Of a stretch of 64,000 bases of DNA, positions 10,357-15,476 are shown one piece after another. How positions within the stretch are numbered: position 1 is the stretch's first letter; every line of letters starts with the position of its first letter. The translations under genes and the position numbers were made by a program. Location of the stretch: NCBI RefSeq assembly GCF_031624395.1, contig NZ_JAMQON010000001.1, positions 62,001-126,000 on the forward strand. Reading direction: 5' to 3'. Below the pieces are notes generated by a model. The model searched no databases. It was given only the letters and a program-made list of their open reading frames with translations, and was not told where the DNA came from. The DNA comes from Halomicroarcula saliterrae. Its GTDB lineage: Archaea; Halobacteriota; Halobacteria; Halobacteriales; Haloarculaceae.

Positions 10357-11189
10357 CAGAACTCTATCCCCTTGAACTCGCGAGCTTGATTTTGAATGGC
10401 CTCCTCGGTCGGGAGCCGTTCGATGCTGGAGGCGCCGAAGAAGCCGACGACGCCCTCCGTGTTGTTCAGGACGTACTCGGCGTCGTCGGGCCAGGCGATG
10501 GGGCCGCCGTGGCAGATGACCATGACGTCGTCGTCGACGTCTTTCGCGGCGTCGTGGTGGGCCTGGACGCGCTCGGCGGCCGTTTCGAGGTCCAGTGCGG
10601 TCTCCGCGCCGATGTCGCCCGACGTGGTCAGTCCCATGTGCGAGACGATGACGTCCGCGCCGGCCTCGGCCATCTCGCGGGCGTGAGCCTCGGTGAAGAC
10701 GTACGGACAGGTGAGCATTCCCCGGTCGGCGGCCTCCCGGATCATCTCTATCTCCTCGTCGTAGCCCATCCCGGTCTCCTCCAGATTCCGCCGGAAGGAG
10801 CTGTCCTCGTCGATGAGGCCGACTGTCGGGAAGTTCTGGACGCCCGAAAAGCCCCGCCGCTTCAGGTCCTCGATGAACACGTCCATCTGTCGGAACGGGT
10901 CGGTCCCGTTGACGCCGGCCAGAACGGGGGTGTCCTCGACGACCGGGAGCACCTCGTGACCCATCTCGACGACGATCTCGTTCGCGTCGCCGTAGGGCAA
11001 CAGCCCGGCCAGCGACCCGCGGCCGTTCATCCGGTATCGCCCGGAGTTGTAGATGATGAGCAGGTCGACCCCGCCCCGCTCGGCGAACTTCGCCGAGATA
11101 CCGGTCCCCGCGCCGGCGCCGATGACGGGTTCGCCGTTCGAGACTACCGATTCCAGCCGTTCGAGTGACTCCGCATGCGAGAACTGCAT
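10356..11189 (-). CDS. PEP-hydrolase-like TIM-barrel protein (Tm-1 C-terminal domain family)
   Basis: A 277-residue protein of the TIM_br_sig_trns family. Landmarks are GEPVIGAGAGTGISAKFAERGG near the start, LLIIYNSGRYRMNGRGSLAG, GVQNFPTVGLIDE, VSHMGLTTSG and CHGGPIAWP. The family is annotated as phosphoenolpyruvate hydrolase-like; biochemical evidence is thin. In eukaryotic Tm-1-type proteins this domain is fused C-terminal to the UPF0261 domain; here it is a separate upstream gene overlapping it. The ATG at 11189 is the family N-terminus (MQFSHAES); the frame is open further upstream but without supporting similarity. Confidence 0.87.
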   Translation of the reverse strand: MQFSHAESLERLESVVSNGEPVIGAGAGTGISAKFAERGGVDLLIIYNSGRYRMNGRGSLAGLLPYGDANEIVVEMGHEVLPVVEDTPVLAGVNGTDPFRQMDVFIEDLKRRGFSGVQNFPTVGLIDEDSSFRRNLEETGMGYDEEIEMIREAADRGMLTCPYVFTEAHAREMAEAGADVIVSHMGLTTSGDIGAETALDLETAAERVQAHHDAAKDVDDDVMVICHGGPIAWPDDAEYVLNNTEGVVGFFGASSIERLPTEEAIQNQAREFKGIEF

Positions 11190-11385
11190 GCGAGAGCGTA
11201 GCTGTGCTATCGCCTTGGAAATTGTTACCAGTTGATATGTCCCGCGGATAGTGACAGCCGACGGGGTTCCGGGCGAAGCCCGCGAGGAAAATCGGGCCGT
11301 CGAACTGGCAGCACCGTCGGCTGTGCGGACGTGACTCTCGCCGAACAAAACGGCTAAACCGGTCGACCCCGAGGCTTGGGGTAGG

Positions 11386-12438
11386 ATGCTCCAGCGGGCC
11401 GAGCCACAGGACTTCGAACGGGTGCTCTCCTCGATGTGTACCGTTCCACACCCGTCGGCCCGCAAGGCGGCGGAGCGCTTTCTCGCGACCAACCCCGGCG
11501 ACCCCGGCACCTACGAGACCGTCGCCGACCTCGAAGACGACGCCGTCGACGCGCTGGGGGAACTGACCGGGCTGGCGGAGCCGGCCGGGTATATCGCCTC
11601 CGGCGGCACCGAGGCCAACATTCAGGCGCTGCGCATCGCCCGCAACCGGGCCGACACCGACGACCCCAACGTCGTCGCGCCGGTCCACGCCCACTTCTCC
11701 TTTACCAAGGCCGCGGCCGTGCTGGACGTTGAACTGCGCACCGCGCCGGCCCGGAACCACCGCGCCGACACGGAAGCGATGGCCGAGCTGATAGACGACG
11801 ACACCGTCTGTGTCGTCGGCGTGGCCGGCTCGACGGAGTACGGCTTCGTCGACCCTATCCCCGCGATAGCCGACCTCGCGGGCGACGCCGGCGCGCTGTG
11901 TCACGTCGACGCCGCGTGGGGCGGCTTCTATCTACCTTTCACCGACCACGACTGGCACTTCGGCCACGCCGCCGTGGACACGATGACCATCGACCCACAC
12001 AAGGTCGGGCAGGCCGCCGTCCCCGCCGGCGGACTGCTCGCACGCGAGGAGACACTGCTGGACGACCTGGCCGTCGAGACGCCGTATCTCGAATCGACGA
12101 GCCAGCTCACGCTCACCGGGACCCGCTCGGGCGCCGGCGTCGCGTCGGCCGTCGCGGCGATGGAGGCCCTCTGGCCGGCGGGCTACCGAGAGCAGTACGA
12201 GCGGTCGATGGACAACGCCGAGTGGCTGGCCGACCAGCTCAGCGCCCGGGGCCACGATGTCGTCGGGCCGGAGCTCCCGCTCGTGGCCGCCGACCTCTCG
12301 ATTCCGATGACCGACGAACTGCGCGAGCGGGGCTGTTCGAGGAGCGGTCGCCTCGGCGACCCGACGATGAAAAAGATGGTGGCCCACGTGACGCGGTCGA
12401 TGCTGCGGTCGTTCGTGGCGGATTTGGACTGGTATTAG
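11386..12438 (+). CDS. mfnA: L-aspartate/L-tyrosine decarboxylase MfnA with altered C-terminus
   Basis: A 350-residue PLP-dependent group II decarboxylase. Conserved features are [18 protein letters not shown] (residues 69-78), [12 protein letters not shown] and TIDPHKVG with the PLP lysine Lys206. In haloarchaea it probably supplies beta-alanine for coenzyme A by aspartate decarboxylation. The C-terminal end [17 protein letters not shown] is family-like, but residues 317-333 ([17 protein letters not shown]) do not resemble the usual W-R-x-S ... R-[VI]-V-x-M-P block. That stretch is encoded by a palindromic element repeated downstream at 12561. Length is unchanged, so activity may be altered rather than the gene truncated. 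Confidence 0.88.
12336..12392 (+). repeat. Palindromic repeat copy 1, inside mfnA
   Basis: This 57-nt stretch matches 12561-12617 at 54 of 57 positions by direct comparison. It begins TTCGAGGAGC and contains the inverted repeat GGTCGCC / GGCGACC (12346-12361). It encodes MfnA residues 317-335 and replaces the normally conserved block there. Confidence 0.85.
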
Positions 12439-12439
12439 G

Positions 12440-12524
12440 GTCCGGCGGCTTCGCCGCCGGTTCCCCGGACGCGAAGGTTGCGCGGTCGCTTGCGACCGCG
12501 GGAGACGACGGCGCGACGCGCCGT
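12440..12524 (+). repeat. Array of three perfect GC hairpins downstream of mfnA
   Basis: Three consecutive inverted repeats: CCGGCGGC / GCCGCCGG with loop TTC (12442-12460); CGCGGTCGC / GCGACCGCG with loop TT (12481-12500); ACGGCGCG / CGCGCCGT with loop A (12508-12524). T-rich runs follow at 12544-12548 and 12557-12562, so the array could also be the mfnA transcript end. The region 12439-12718 has no supported gene. Confidence 0.7.
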
Positions 12525-12560
12525 GAGTCAGTGAGCGTCCGGCCTTTTTCACCCCTGTTT

Positions 12561-12617
12561 TTCGAGGAGCGGTCGCCTCGGCGACCCGACGATGACAAAG
12601 ATGGTGGCTCACGGGAC
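12561..12617 (+). repeat. Palindromic repeat copy 2, intergenic
   Basis: Second copy of the 57-nt element found inside mfnA, 225 nt downstream in direct orientation. The inverted repeat GGTCGCC / GGCGACC with loop TC is at 12571-12586. Differences from copy 1 are three single bases near its 3' half. Confidence 0.85.
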
Positions 12618-12652
12618 CACGACGGCCGCTGTCGCCGTTTGTTTCACAACCA

Positions 12653-12700
12653 CTGATAAGTAAACTATCAGCTCAGTATCGCTCCCGAGTGAAAATATCA
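12653..12700 (+). promoter_or_regulatory. Promoter with inverted repeat upstream of VTT-domain gene
   Basis: An AT-rich TATA-like element AAAATATCA lies at 12692-12700, 19-27 nt before the GTG at 12719. Just upstream is CTGATA / TATCAG with a 7-nt spacer (12653-12671), a candidate operator. Confidence 0.5.
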
Positions 12701-12718
12701 AGCTTTAGGACCCACTGA

Positions 12719-13318
12719 GTGATATCGACTGACGTGAGTTGGCCCTTCGCGGTTCCCCTGCCGGTCGCGTTCCTCGCCGAGTGTGGTACCGCCGGCAGTT
12801 CGCTCGCCCTCCTGGAGGAGGCCGTCTGTACAGCGACCGGCCCGACGGGGCTGGCCATCATCGCGGTGTACTCCTTTCTCATCGCCTTCGTGTTGCCGTT
12901 GCCCAGCGAGGTCGTCCTCGTGCCGGCGGAGACGCTCCGGCTCGGGCTCTCGACGCAGGGGAACATCGCCGCCATCATCCTCTTCAGCGCGCTGGGCAAG
13001 GCGCTGGGGAGCCTCTTCGCGTTCCACATCGGACAGGAGGCAAAGGAGTACGGCCCGCTGGTCCGGCGCATCAAGGACTCCCGGTTCGACATCATCGAGT
13101 GGTCCGAGCGCAAGACCATCAAAATCGCACGCAAGTACGGCTACGTCGGCCTCGCGCTGGCGCTGTCGGTCCCCTTCTTCCCCGATACGCTCTCCATCTA
13201 CGCGTTCACGGTGCTGGAGGAGGACTACGTCCGCTTTGGCGCGGCGACGTTCGTGGGCAGCGCGGGTCGCCTGCTCGTGACGCTGGGGCTCGCCGGCGGG
13301 ACGCTGGCGCTGCTGTAG
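12719..13318 (+). CDS. VTT/SNARE-associated (DedA-like) membrane protein
   Basis: A 199-residue polytopic membrane protein. A hydrophobic span (GLAIIAVYSFLIAFVLPLPS) contains the conserved LPLPSE segment of YqaA/DedA-like proteins, followed by ALGKALGSLFAFHIGQ and a C-terminal SVPFFPDTLSIYAF block typical of the VTT domain. The family is implicated in lipid scrambling or small-solute transport; substrate here is unknown. The GTG at 12719 is used; another GTG at 12734 is nearly as good given the TATA position. Confidence 0.8.
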   Translation: MISTDVSWPFAVPLPVAFLAECGTAGSSLALLEEAVCTATGPTGLAIIAVYSFLIAFVLPLPSEVVLVPAETLRLGLSTQGNIAAIILFSALGKALGSLFAFHIGQEAKEYGPLVRRIKDSRFDIIEWSERKTIKIARKYGYVGLALALSVPFFPDTLSIYAFTVLEEDYVRFGAATFVGSAGRLLVTLGLAGGTLALL

Positions 13319-13361
13319 GAAACCAACCCCCTTTTGACCCGTCGGCGGCACACGAACAGGT

Positions 13362-15476
13362 ATGAGTCACGACGAGTTTCCCACGGACCACCCAGCGGTG
13401 GTCACCTGCGGGCTCCCCTACGCCAACGGCGACCTGCACGTCGGCCACCTGCGGACCTACGTCGCCGGCGACGCCCTCTCGCGAGGGCTGCGACGCATCG
13501 GCCAGCAGACCGCCTTCGTCTGCGGCTCGGACATGCACGGGACGCCGGTCGCCGTCAACGCCGCCGAGGAGGGAGTCGAACCCCGCGAGTTCGCGCTGGA
13601 GTACCACGAGAGCTACGCCGAGACGTTCCCGCAGTTCAACGTCGAGTTCGACAACTACGGCCACACGGACGACGAGACGAACACCGAACTCACACAGGAG
13701 TTCGTCCGCTCGTGGGTGGCGGGGGACTACGTCCACGAGAAGGAGATAGAGGTCGCCTGGGACACCGAGGAGGACCAGCCCCTGCCCGACCGGTTCGTCG
13801 AGGGGACCTGCCCCTACTGCGGCGAACAGGCCCGCGGCGACGAGTGCGACGAGGGGTGTCAGCGCCACCTCGAACCCGGCGAAATCGAGGACCCGGTGAG
13901 TACGATCACGGGCAACCCCGCGGAGTACCGCACGCGCGAACACAAGTTCCTCCGGCTGGCGGAGTTCCAGGAGTACCTCCAGGGGTTCCTCGACCGCATC
14001 GAGGGCACGGACAACGCGAAGAACCAGCCCCGCGAGTGGGTCGACGGCGAACTGCAGGACCTCTGTATCACGCGGGATATGGACTGGGGTATCGACTATC
14101 CCGCCGAGGAGGGAGACGGGGCGACGGCCGAGGACCTCGTGCTGTACGTCTGGGTCGACGCTCCTATCGAGTACGTCGCCTCCACGAAGCAGTACTCAGA
14201 GCGCGTCGGCGCCGACGAGTACGACTGGGAGCAGGTCTGGAAGATCGACGGCGATACCGAACACGGCACCGAGTGGGACGACGAGTGGACCGACGAGGGC
14301 GGCGACATCGTCCACGTCATCGGCCGGGACATCATCCAGCACCACGCGGTCTTCTGGCCGGCGATGTTGCGCGGGGCGGGCTACAACGAACCGCGCTCGC
14401 TTCTCGCAACTGGCTTCGTCGGCATCGACGGCAAGGCCCTCTCGACGTCGCGAAACCGTGCGGTGTGGGCCGAGGAGTATCTCGACGCCGGCTTCCACCC
14501 CGACCTGTTCCGGTACTACATCGCGACGGGCGCGGGCTTAGAGACCGACGTGGACTTCTCGTGGGACCGCTTTGCCGAGCGGGTCAACGGCGAACTCGTC
14601 GGGAACGTCGGGAACTTCATCAACCGCGGGCTCCTCTTCGCCCACCGGAACTACGGCGGCACGCCCGAGGTCGACGTCAGCGACGACGTTCGCGAGCGCA
14701 TCGAGACGACGCTCTCGGAGTTCGAGGCGGCCGTCCGGGAGTACGACGTCCGCGCGCTCGCGGAACTGGCGACGGAGCTGTCGGACTACGGGAACGAGTA
14801 CATCCAGCGGACGGAGCCGTGGCACCTCGTCGACGAAGCGCCCGAGGAGGCCGAGCAGGTCATCCGCGACTGCGTCCAGCTGGCGAAGGCCGTCGCCGTC
14901 GTCATGCAGCCGGTGTTGCCCGGCAAGGCCGAGCGGCTGTGGGGCCAGCTAGAGGAGCCCGGGTCGGTCGCCGAGGCGTCGCTCTCCGCCGCGCTGGAGG
15001 CGCCGCCGGCGTCGTTCGGCGAGCCCGAACAGCTGTTCGAGCAGGTCGACGACGACCACATCGCGGTGCTGAACGAGGAGCTACAGGGACGAGTCGAGAG
15101 CGAGGCTTCGGCGGAAGCCCCGGACGACGAGCCCGCCGACCTCGAACCGCTCGCCGACGAGCGCATCAGCTTCGACGACTTCGAGGGGGTCGACATGCGC
15201 GTCGGCGAGATCGTCAGCGCCGAATCGGTCGAGGACGCCGACAAGCTCCTCAAGCTCGAAGTCGACATCGGCCACGAGGTCCGCCAGGTCGTCGCCGGCC
15301 TCGCCGAACTCCACGAGGTCGACGAGCTCCCGGGAACGCGTGTCATACTGCTTGCAAACATGGAGCAGGCGACCATCTTCGGCGTCGAATCGAACGGGAT
15401 GGTGCTGGCAGCCGGCGACGAGGCCGACCTGCTGACCACGCACGGCGACGCCCCGCTGGGCACTCGGGTGCAGTAG
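13362..15476 (+). CDS. metG: Methionyl-tRNA synthetase with C-terminal tRNA-binding domain
   Basis: A 704-residue class I synthetase that charges tRNA-Met. The HIGH motif is HVGH (residues 26-29); the KMSKS loop appears as KALSTSRN. The connective-peptide zinc knuckle is CPYCGEQARGDECDEGC. The anticodon-binding helical domain follows, then an acidic linker and a fused Trbp111/EMAP-type OB domain (about residues 595-704, starting ISFDDFEGVDMRVGEIV), which increases tRNA affinity. In some archaea this OB domain is a separate protein; here it is fused. Monocistronic. Confidence 0.97.
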   Translation: MSHDEFPTDHPAVVTCGLPYANGDLHVGHLRTYVAGDALSRGLRRIGQQTAFVCGSDMHGTPVAVNAAEEGVEPREFALEYHESYAETFPQFNVEFDNYGHTDDETNTELTQEFVRSWVAGDYVHEKEIEVAWDTEEDQPLPDRFVEGTCPYCGEQARGDECDEGCQRHLEPGEIEDPVSTITGNPAEYRTREHKFLRLAEFQEYLQGFLDRIEGTDNAKNQPREWVDGELQDLCITRDMDWGIDYPAEEGDGATAEDLVLYVWVDAPIEYVASTKQYSERVGADEYDWEQVWKIDGDTEHGTEWDDEWTDEGGDIVHVIGRDIIQHHAVFWPAMLRGAGYNEPRSLLATGFVGIDGKALSTSRNRAVWAEEYLDAGFHPDLFRYYIATGAGLETDVDFSWDRFAERVNGELVGNVGNFINRGLLFAHRNYGGTPEVDVSDDVRERIETTLSEFEAAVREYDVRALAELATELSDYGNEYIQRTEPWHLVDEAPEEAEQVIRDCVQLAKAVAVVMQPVLPGKAERLWGQLEEPGSVAEASLSAALEAPPASFGEPEQLFEQVDDDHIAVLNEELQGRVESEASAEAPDDEPADLEPLADERISFDDFEGVDMRVGEIVSAESVEDADKLLKLEVDIGHEVRQVVAGLAELHEVDELPGTRVILLANMEQATIFGVESNGMVLAAGDEADLLTTHGDAPLGTRVQ

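Follow-up and report, generated by a model that had tools for sequence, protein, structure and literature searches.

How can a conserved stretch of an enzyme come to be encoded by a palindromic repeat that also lies just behind the gene, with neither reading frame nor gene length disturbed? This question is raised by a decarboxylase gene in the window, the whole stretch of 64,000 nucleotides analysed here, which belongs to a Haloarcula-like genome of 4.2 Mb available as a draft assembly of 20 contigs (G000). The gene and the parts of its 3' end are as follows, in window coordinates; E denotes the repeated element and B a duplicate of the 3' end of mfnA.

11386 to 12438, + strand: mfnA, 350 aa, pyridoxal-phosphate-dependent decarboxylase of the tyrosine/aspartate decarboxylase family (TIGR03812, PF00282, orthologue identity)
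12329 to 12335, + strand: GGGGCTG, the final native bases, up to the new left joint; the same in G022 and G009, which continue GCGCGTC
12336 to 12384, + strand: 49 nt of E within the coding sequence, encoding most of the 17 swapped residues
12385 to 12438, + strand: mfnA 3' end, collinear with the E-B joint of G009, G004, H. salina, H. vallismortis, G024 and G027

The open reading frame is assigned to MfnA by a TIGR03812 score of 327.4 bits, above the curated cut-off of 299.4, and by an identity of about 84-89% to Haloarcula orthologues. The cofactor lysine motif DPHK (D203, P204, H205, K206) is invariant in the alignment, including the window protein. The window genome yielded no PanD-type aspartate decarboxylase; it holds a distant decarboxylase-like relative at C7:123789 (37% over part). 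Outside the altered segment the gene is placed normally in the Haloarcula tree, with five synonymous and two non-synonymous private changes, and D111A is the sole change at residues that are invariant in the 29 other Haloarcula. Since private changes are few and D111A stands alone, the gene is not visibly decaying; the replacement may be recent.

The segment itself belongs to a 57-nt repeat with copies at 12336-12392 and 12561-12617, identical at 54 of 57 positions (95%) and spaced by 225, a similarity far beyond chance; our repeat search agrees on this with the initial annotation, which had reported the pair. That annotation also held that the upstream copy displaces an expected W-R...MP segment without changing the length of the gene, and the orthologues bear out both points. 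The native segment at the site is WRVSKTGxGEMRVVCMP, and every orthologue from a named record with a readable 3' end shows GWR[VIL]..T..[ED].R[VI]V.MPHV or a close variant (another two loci are interrupted upstream). It is intact in 29/29 other Haloarcula genomes compared, and element-derived residues occur in the window genome only. Positions W317, R318, T322, E326, R328, V330, M332 and P333 are invariant in the native alignment, and the C-terminal W-R...E.R.V.MP, invariant in 26 orthologues, loses this invariance once the window protein is added. Seventeen conserved MfnA residues are swapped for residues encoded by the palindromic element, in frame and at the same length. Identity of the replaced stretch is 16/52 to native DNA and 50/52 to the downstream repeat. 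GGGGCTG and CACGTGAC are separated by precisely 49 nt in all three of the window, G022 and G009, which makes the replacement length-neutral to the base. In structure predictions of low overall confidence, a quality too poor to bear on activity (mean pLDDT 61 for the window protein and 65 for H. rara MfnA), the two ten-residue blocks of residues 311-330 scored 47 and 35 in the window protein against 66 and 58 in H. rara.

Two simpler readings of the segment can be weighed at this point. One is that it is native to a divergent MfnA gained by transfer. The orthologue comparison found the same segment in no orthologue; tree placement of the remaining gene within Haloarcula is normal, and the segment agrees with the downstream repeat at 54/57. 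Nothing was found in favour of this reading, which the comparison rules out and whose probability we regard as negligible. The other is that the assembly has collapsed a repeat or mis-joined it into mfnA, as near-identical 57-nt copies 225 bp apart in a draft of 20 contigs might allow. We consider this quite improbable, because the copies differ at 3/57 positions, in T-run length and in their flanks, an ordinary read is longer than either copy, and the joint lies exactly in frame and register.

The initial annotation was also right that the segment derives from a repeated palindromic element. R1, a covariance model made from 18 copies, has 16 matches in the window genome at an E-value of 1 or less, about 12 of them clear and the weakest few doubtful. 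The coding copy scores 42.9 bits (C1:74328-74379, window 12328-12379). Matches occur in 90/96 genomes and 22/22 genera of the family and in 93/146 genomes of the order, and in a sample of the phylum they are confined to genomes of the same order. E is apparently a previously undescribed structured palindromic hairpin element of about 50-75 nt. Its core is an imperfect hairpin in which a 4-nt arm is followed by GTTTTTCGAGGAGYGG, a variable apical stem and CCCGACGANGAAAAAG, and closed by the complementary arm. Covariation is seen between the arms (CCAC/GTGG, CGAC/GTCG, GAAC/GTTC), which pair fully in 116/133 copies, or at 513/532 positions against a shuffle maximum of 464. Core conservation and pairing are partly a matter of how examples were picked: resemblance to the window guided the choice of the first copies, and arm pairing enters the model's score. 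Pairing does not extend to the adjoining 4 nt on the outside; apical stems vary and the flanking motifs stay constant. E usually sits behind a hairpin and a T-run, the latter within 14 nt upstream in 122/136 copies compared with 1.2% of random places, and it occurs behind unrelated genes. In Rfam 15, the region 11000-13400 of the window has no relevant match, with one sub-threshold hit elsewhere in the stretch. No description of E came up in the open-licence literature searched on palindromic repeats of haloarchaea, long target duplications, REP and template switching, which is not proof of novelty. At L090 and L113 an alternative hairpin module, GGGGGTTGAGCG...CGCGATGCCCCCG, takes the position of E or follows the duplicate, adjoining the same GTTTTT and AAAAAGGTGG motifs.

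Behind mfnA, the window contains the following.

12442 to 12460, + strand: first hairpin after the stop codon (CCGGCGGCTTCGCCGCCGG), read from the sequence
12466 to 12542, + strand: branched hairpin closed by CCGGACGC/GCGTCCGG, read from the sequence
12553 to 12604, + strand: intergenic copy of E with hairpin CCCTGTTTTTCGAGGAG...CCCGACGATGACAAAGATGG (covariance model, C1:74553-74604, 60.8 bits)
12609 to 12618, + strand: TCACGGGACC, probable remnant of B (by-eye comparison)

A T-run at 12545-12549 follows the branched hairpin, and a similar branched module lies upstream of E at C3:445344 (L002). Comparison by eye of TCACGGGACC with GCCCACGTGAC of mfnA and with the B copies of relatives suggests that it is probably a leftover of B, most of which is missing in the window. 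Directly 3' of the element region lies a gene for a VTT-domain membrane protein (12719-13318).

The missing sequence is found in relatives. Six species, G009, G004, G021 (H. salina), G027, G031 (H. vallismortis) and G024, have E followed by B behind an intact mfnA, with a related hairpin in the place of E in G027, and in all six B begins at the same base (A-59). Other Haloarcula have shorter relics or nothing. As the same E-B joint is present in six species that fall in both main clades of the mfnA tree, it would trace back to a single early event followed by losses. Window mfnA is collinear without gaps with the E-B unit of G009 from TTCGAGG up to its stop codon, and the distance from TTCGAGG to the CAC of HVTRSML is 49 nt in both. 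The right joint, where the repeat runs into HVTRSML, is therefore the old E-B joint, and only the left joint, GGGGCTG/TTCGAGG, is new.

The two gene ends also appear to interact in other genomes. G022 now lacks the element, and its mfnA end shares 95% identity with the B of the sister genome G017; within G017 itself, mfnA end and B share only 81%. This pattern is consistent with loss of the element through recombination of the two gene ends. Within genomes, the copies at a SufS-like gene share 97-100% identity, compared with 73% between genera, and they have a TCTC linker in common. These identities and shared linkers support a putative history of repeated homogenization (concerted evolution). 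The homogenization pattern is weak in the mfnA and grpE sets (the names grpE and SufS-like were assigned by eye from translated ends), and in G027 and G031 B is not closest to the genome's own mfnA end, indicating patchy homogenization there.

Gene-end copies next to E extend well beyond mfnA. A direct duplication of upstream sequence lies just behind E in 65/136 distinct copies as opposed to 6/680 random positions taken within those loci, a control that rules out pure chance, although the 65 are not all independent events because orthologous loci of related species were counted apart. Of these duplications, 64/65 start no more than 12 nt from the right arm of E, and their sources start 65-272 nt (median 98) upstream of E. 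Some are near-perfect (L247, 94 nt, 100%; L243, 77 nt, 100%; L196, 67 nt, 100%; L131, 124 nt, 97%), and tandem arrays of E and duplicate occur at L229 (three units 142 nt apart), L210, L269, L108 and L247. The duplicated stretch is often a gene 3' end with its stop codon, and by a rough count many include the stops of long open frames; at L137 and L133 the duplicate covers the start codon region of an opposite-strand gene rather than a gene 3' end. For the gene at L168, whose product ends in EIDYQ, only one gene end and no complete element are present in most of the relatives read, the window genome and G013 have element and duplication with the same joint, and G018 has a truncated element and no duplication. 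The same genes, duplication start and linker recur across species or genera in L113 and L196, in L236 and L266, and in L168, L221 and L277, which suggests old events with homogenized copies.

These duplications may originate as long target-site duplications at insertion or by re-copying of upstream DNA at the hairpin. At L164, L226, L238, L170 and L119 the duplication ends within the 5' arm of the hairpin that precedes E, an endpoint that neither model accounts for in full. At these five loci the 3' arm of the hairpin before E is complementary to the target sequence.

A further reading concerns E itself and is compatible with any account of the mfnA event: E may be immobile and function as a 3'-UTR or terminator RNA structure under selection, with the duplications as side effects of repair at hairpins. 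The covariation of the arms, the varying apical stems between retained motifs, the T-run just upstream and the presence of E at the same genes in different genera would all suit such a role. However, E is missing at many orthologous sites, including most loci of the L168 gene that were read and many Haloarcula mfnA loci, and it sits behind unrelated genes. We regard a purely functional structure as a real possibility that nevertheless falls short of probable.

For the mfnA segment, we consider it on balance probable that the gene's end was converted by B, with the exchange overrunning in register into E. Under this model, E would have come to lie behind mfnA in or close to the common ancestor of Haloarcula, giving the order mfnA, hairpins, E and B, the last a copy of the final ~57 nt of mfnA. 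The two gene ends would then act as long direct repeats that can recombine, with the element lost or the gene ends swapped. In the window lineage, B may have recombined or been converted with the gene's own 3' end, anchored by their homology, and the exchange would have overrun that homology in register by 49 nt into E, joining at GGGGCTG/TTCGAGG. In this way mfnA would have gained E and B for its native segment with length and frame kept, while one copy of E remained downstream, and a later deletion of about 46 nt would have removed most of the downstream B. The exact register of the joint, the restriction of the segment to the window genome and the collinearity of E and B with G009 count for conversion, as do the E family with its flanking duplications, the G022 gene end and the SufS-like copies. 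Against it stand the 49-nt overrun beyond homology, which is unusual, the patchy homogenization at mfnA, and the loss of the downstream B, which we infer from just a 10-base remnant. No intermediate genome was found among the genomes compared. The initial annotation had also suggested a length-preserving conversion, between a mobile palindrome and the gene; conversion stands as the most economical account, but the homology was most likely supplied by the duplicated gene end and not by the palindrome, and the old resident E with its second mfnA 3' end in relatives had gone unnoticed.

Deletion within a tandem E-B array would yield the same final structure, which also weighs against conversion. 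Here unequal recombination would have produced mfnA, E1, B, E2 and C in that order, and a single deletion from GGGGCTG in mfnA to TTCGAGG in E1 would have taken out the native 3' end together with the left portion of E1, leaving B as the gene end and E2 downstream. Tandem E-duplicate arrays exist at five other loci, a gene end can be replaced by a downstream copy (G022), and the CTG in GGGGCTG and CCCCTGTTTTTC could have helped. Yet this route takes three events (array, deletion, loss of C) where conversion takes two (conversion, later loss of B), which favours the latter, and the base-exact length would have to be coincidence or selection. We treat array deletion as the main, though tentative, alternative to conversion.

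E shares features with several classes of short repeat. PATEs and SMRs of Haloquadratum walsbyi are reported without target duplication, and the PATE palindromes resemble IS605-type ends (PMC3119063). Like these, E is a short non-coding haloarchaeal repeat without a transposase gene, and PATEs are also palindromic; the long flanking direct duplication in 65/136 copies nevertheless places E outside PATEs. MITEs carry the terminal repeats of a parent transposon and usually have short target duplications. E resembles them as a short non-autonomous repeat with complementary ends and is set apart by the length of its duplications, which span tens to over a hundred bases. REPs are 20-40 bp long and mostly fall in GTAG- and CGTC-tagged super-families (PMC3733652). 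As in REP and REPIN, copies of E are numerous, intergenic imperfect hairpins behind genes. We know of no REP with a copy of the neighbouring gene end; E often has such a copy behind it, which sets it apart. Rickettsia palindromic elements are in-frame insertions that lengthen the protein. The E copy in mfnA is likewise a palindromic repeat read in frame within a protein gene, but here native residues are replaced one for one.

One clear coding case of E, mfnA, is established; open frames across E are no guide to coding invasion, since GC-rich DNA keeps random frames open as well. A second gene of the window genome, ATP-grasp/RimK-like by eye, was noted at L170 (G000:C4:404765-404833) and L291. 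At L170 its product ends in ...GLIRETAGRPRA with the stop codon inside the E hairpin loop, and the G022 orthologue ends in ...ALIRTTAR.

We tentatively propose, as a possibility rather than the expected outcome, that E is a new class of archaeal mobile structured element that copies the 3' end of its target gene behind itself on moving, so that insertion close to gene ends spares genes and later recombination between the two ends can rewrite C-termini; mfnA would be one case and the ATP-grasp-like gene at C4:404765 possibly another. The locus points to an apparently undescribed, widespread haloarchaeal element tied to gene-end duplications, and to a route by which non-coding palindromes may enter conserved protein sequence without a shift in frame or length. 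If the chimeric MfnA is inactive, the organism would have a testable requirement for beta-alanine, because no PanD was found in the genome. If it works, it would be a natural experiment on the loss of a conserved segment tolerated by an enzyme.
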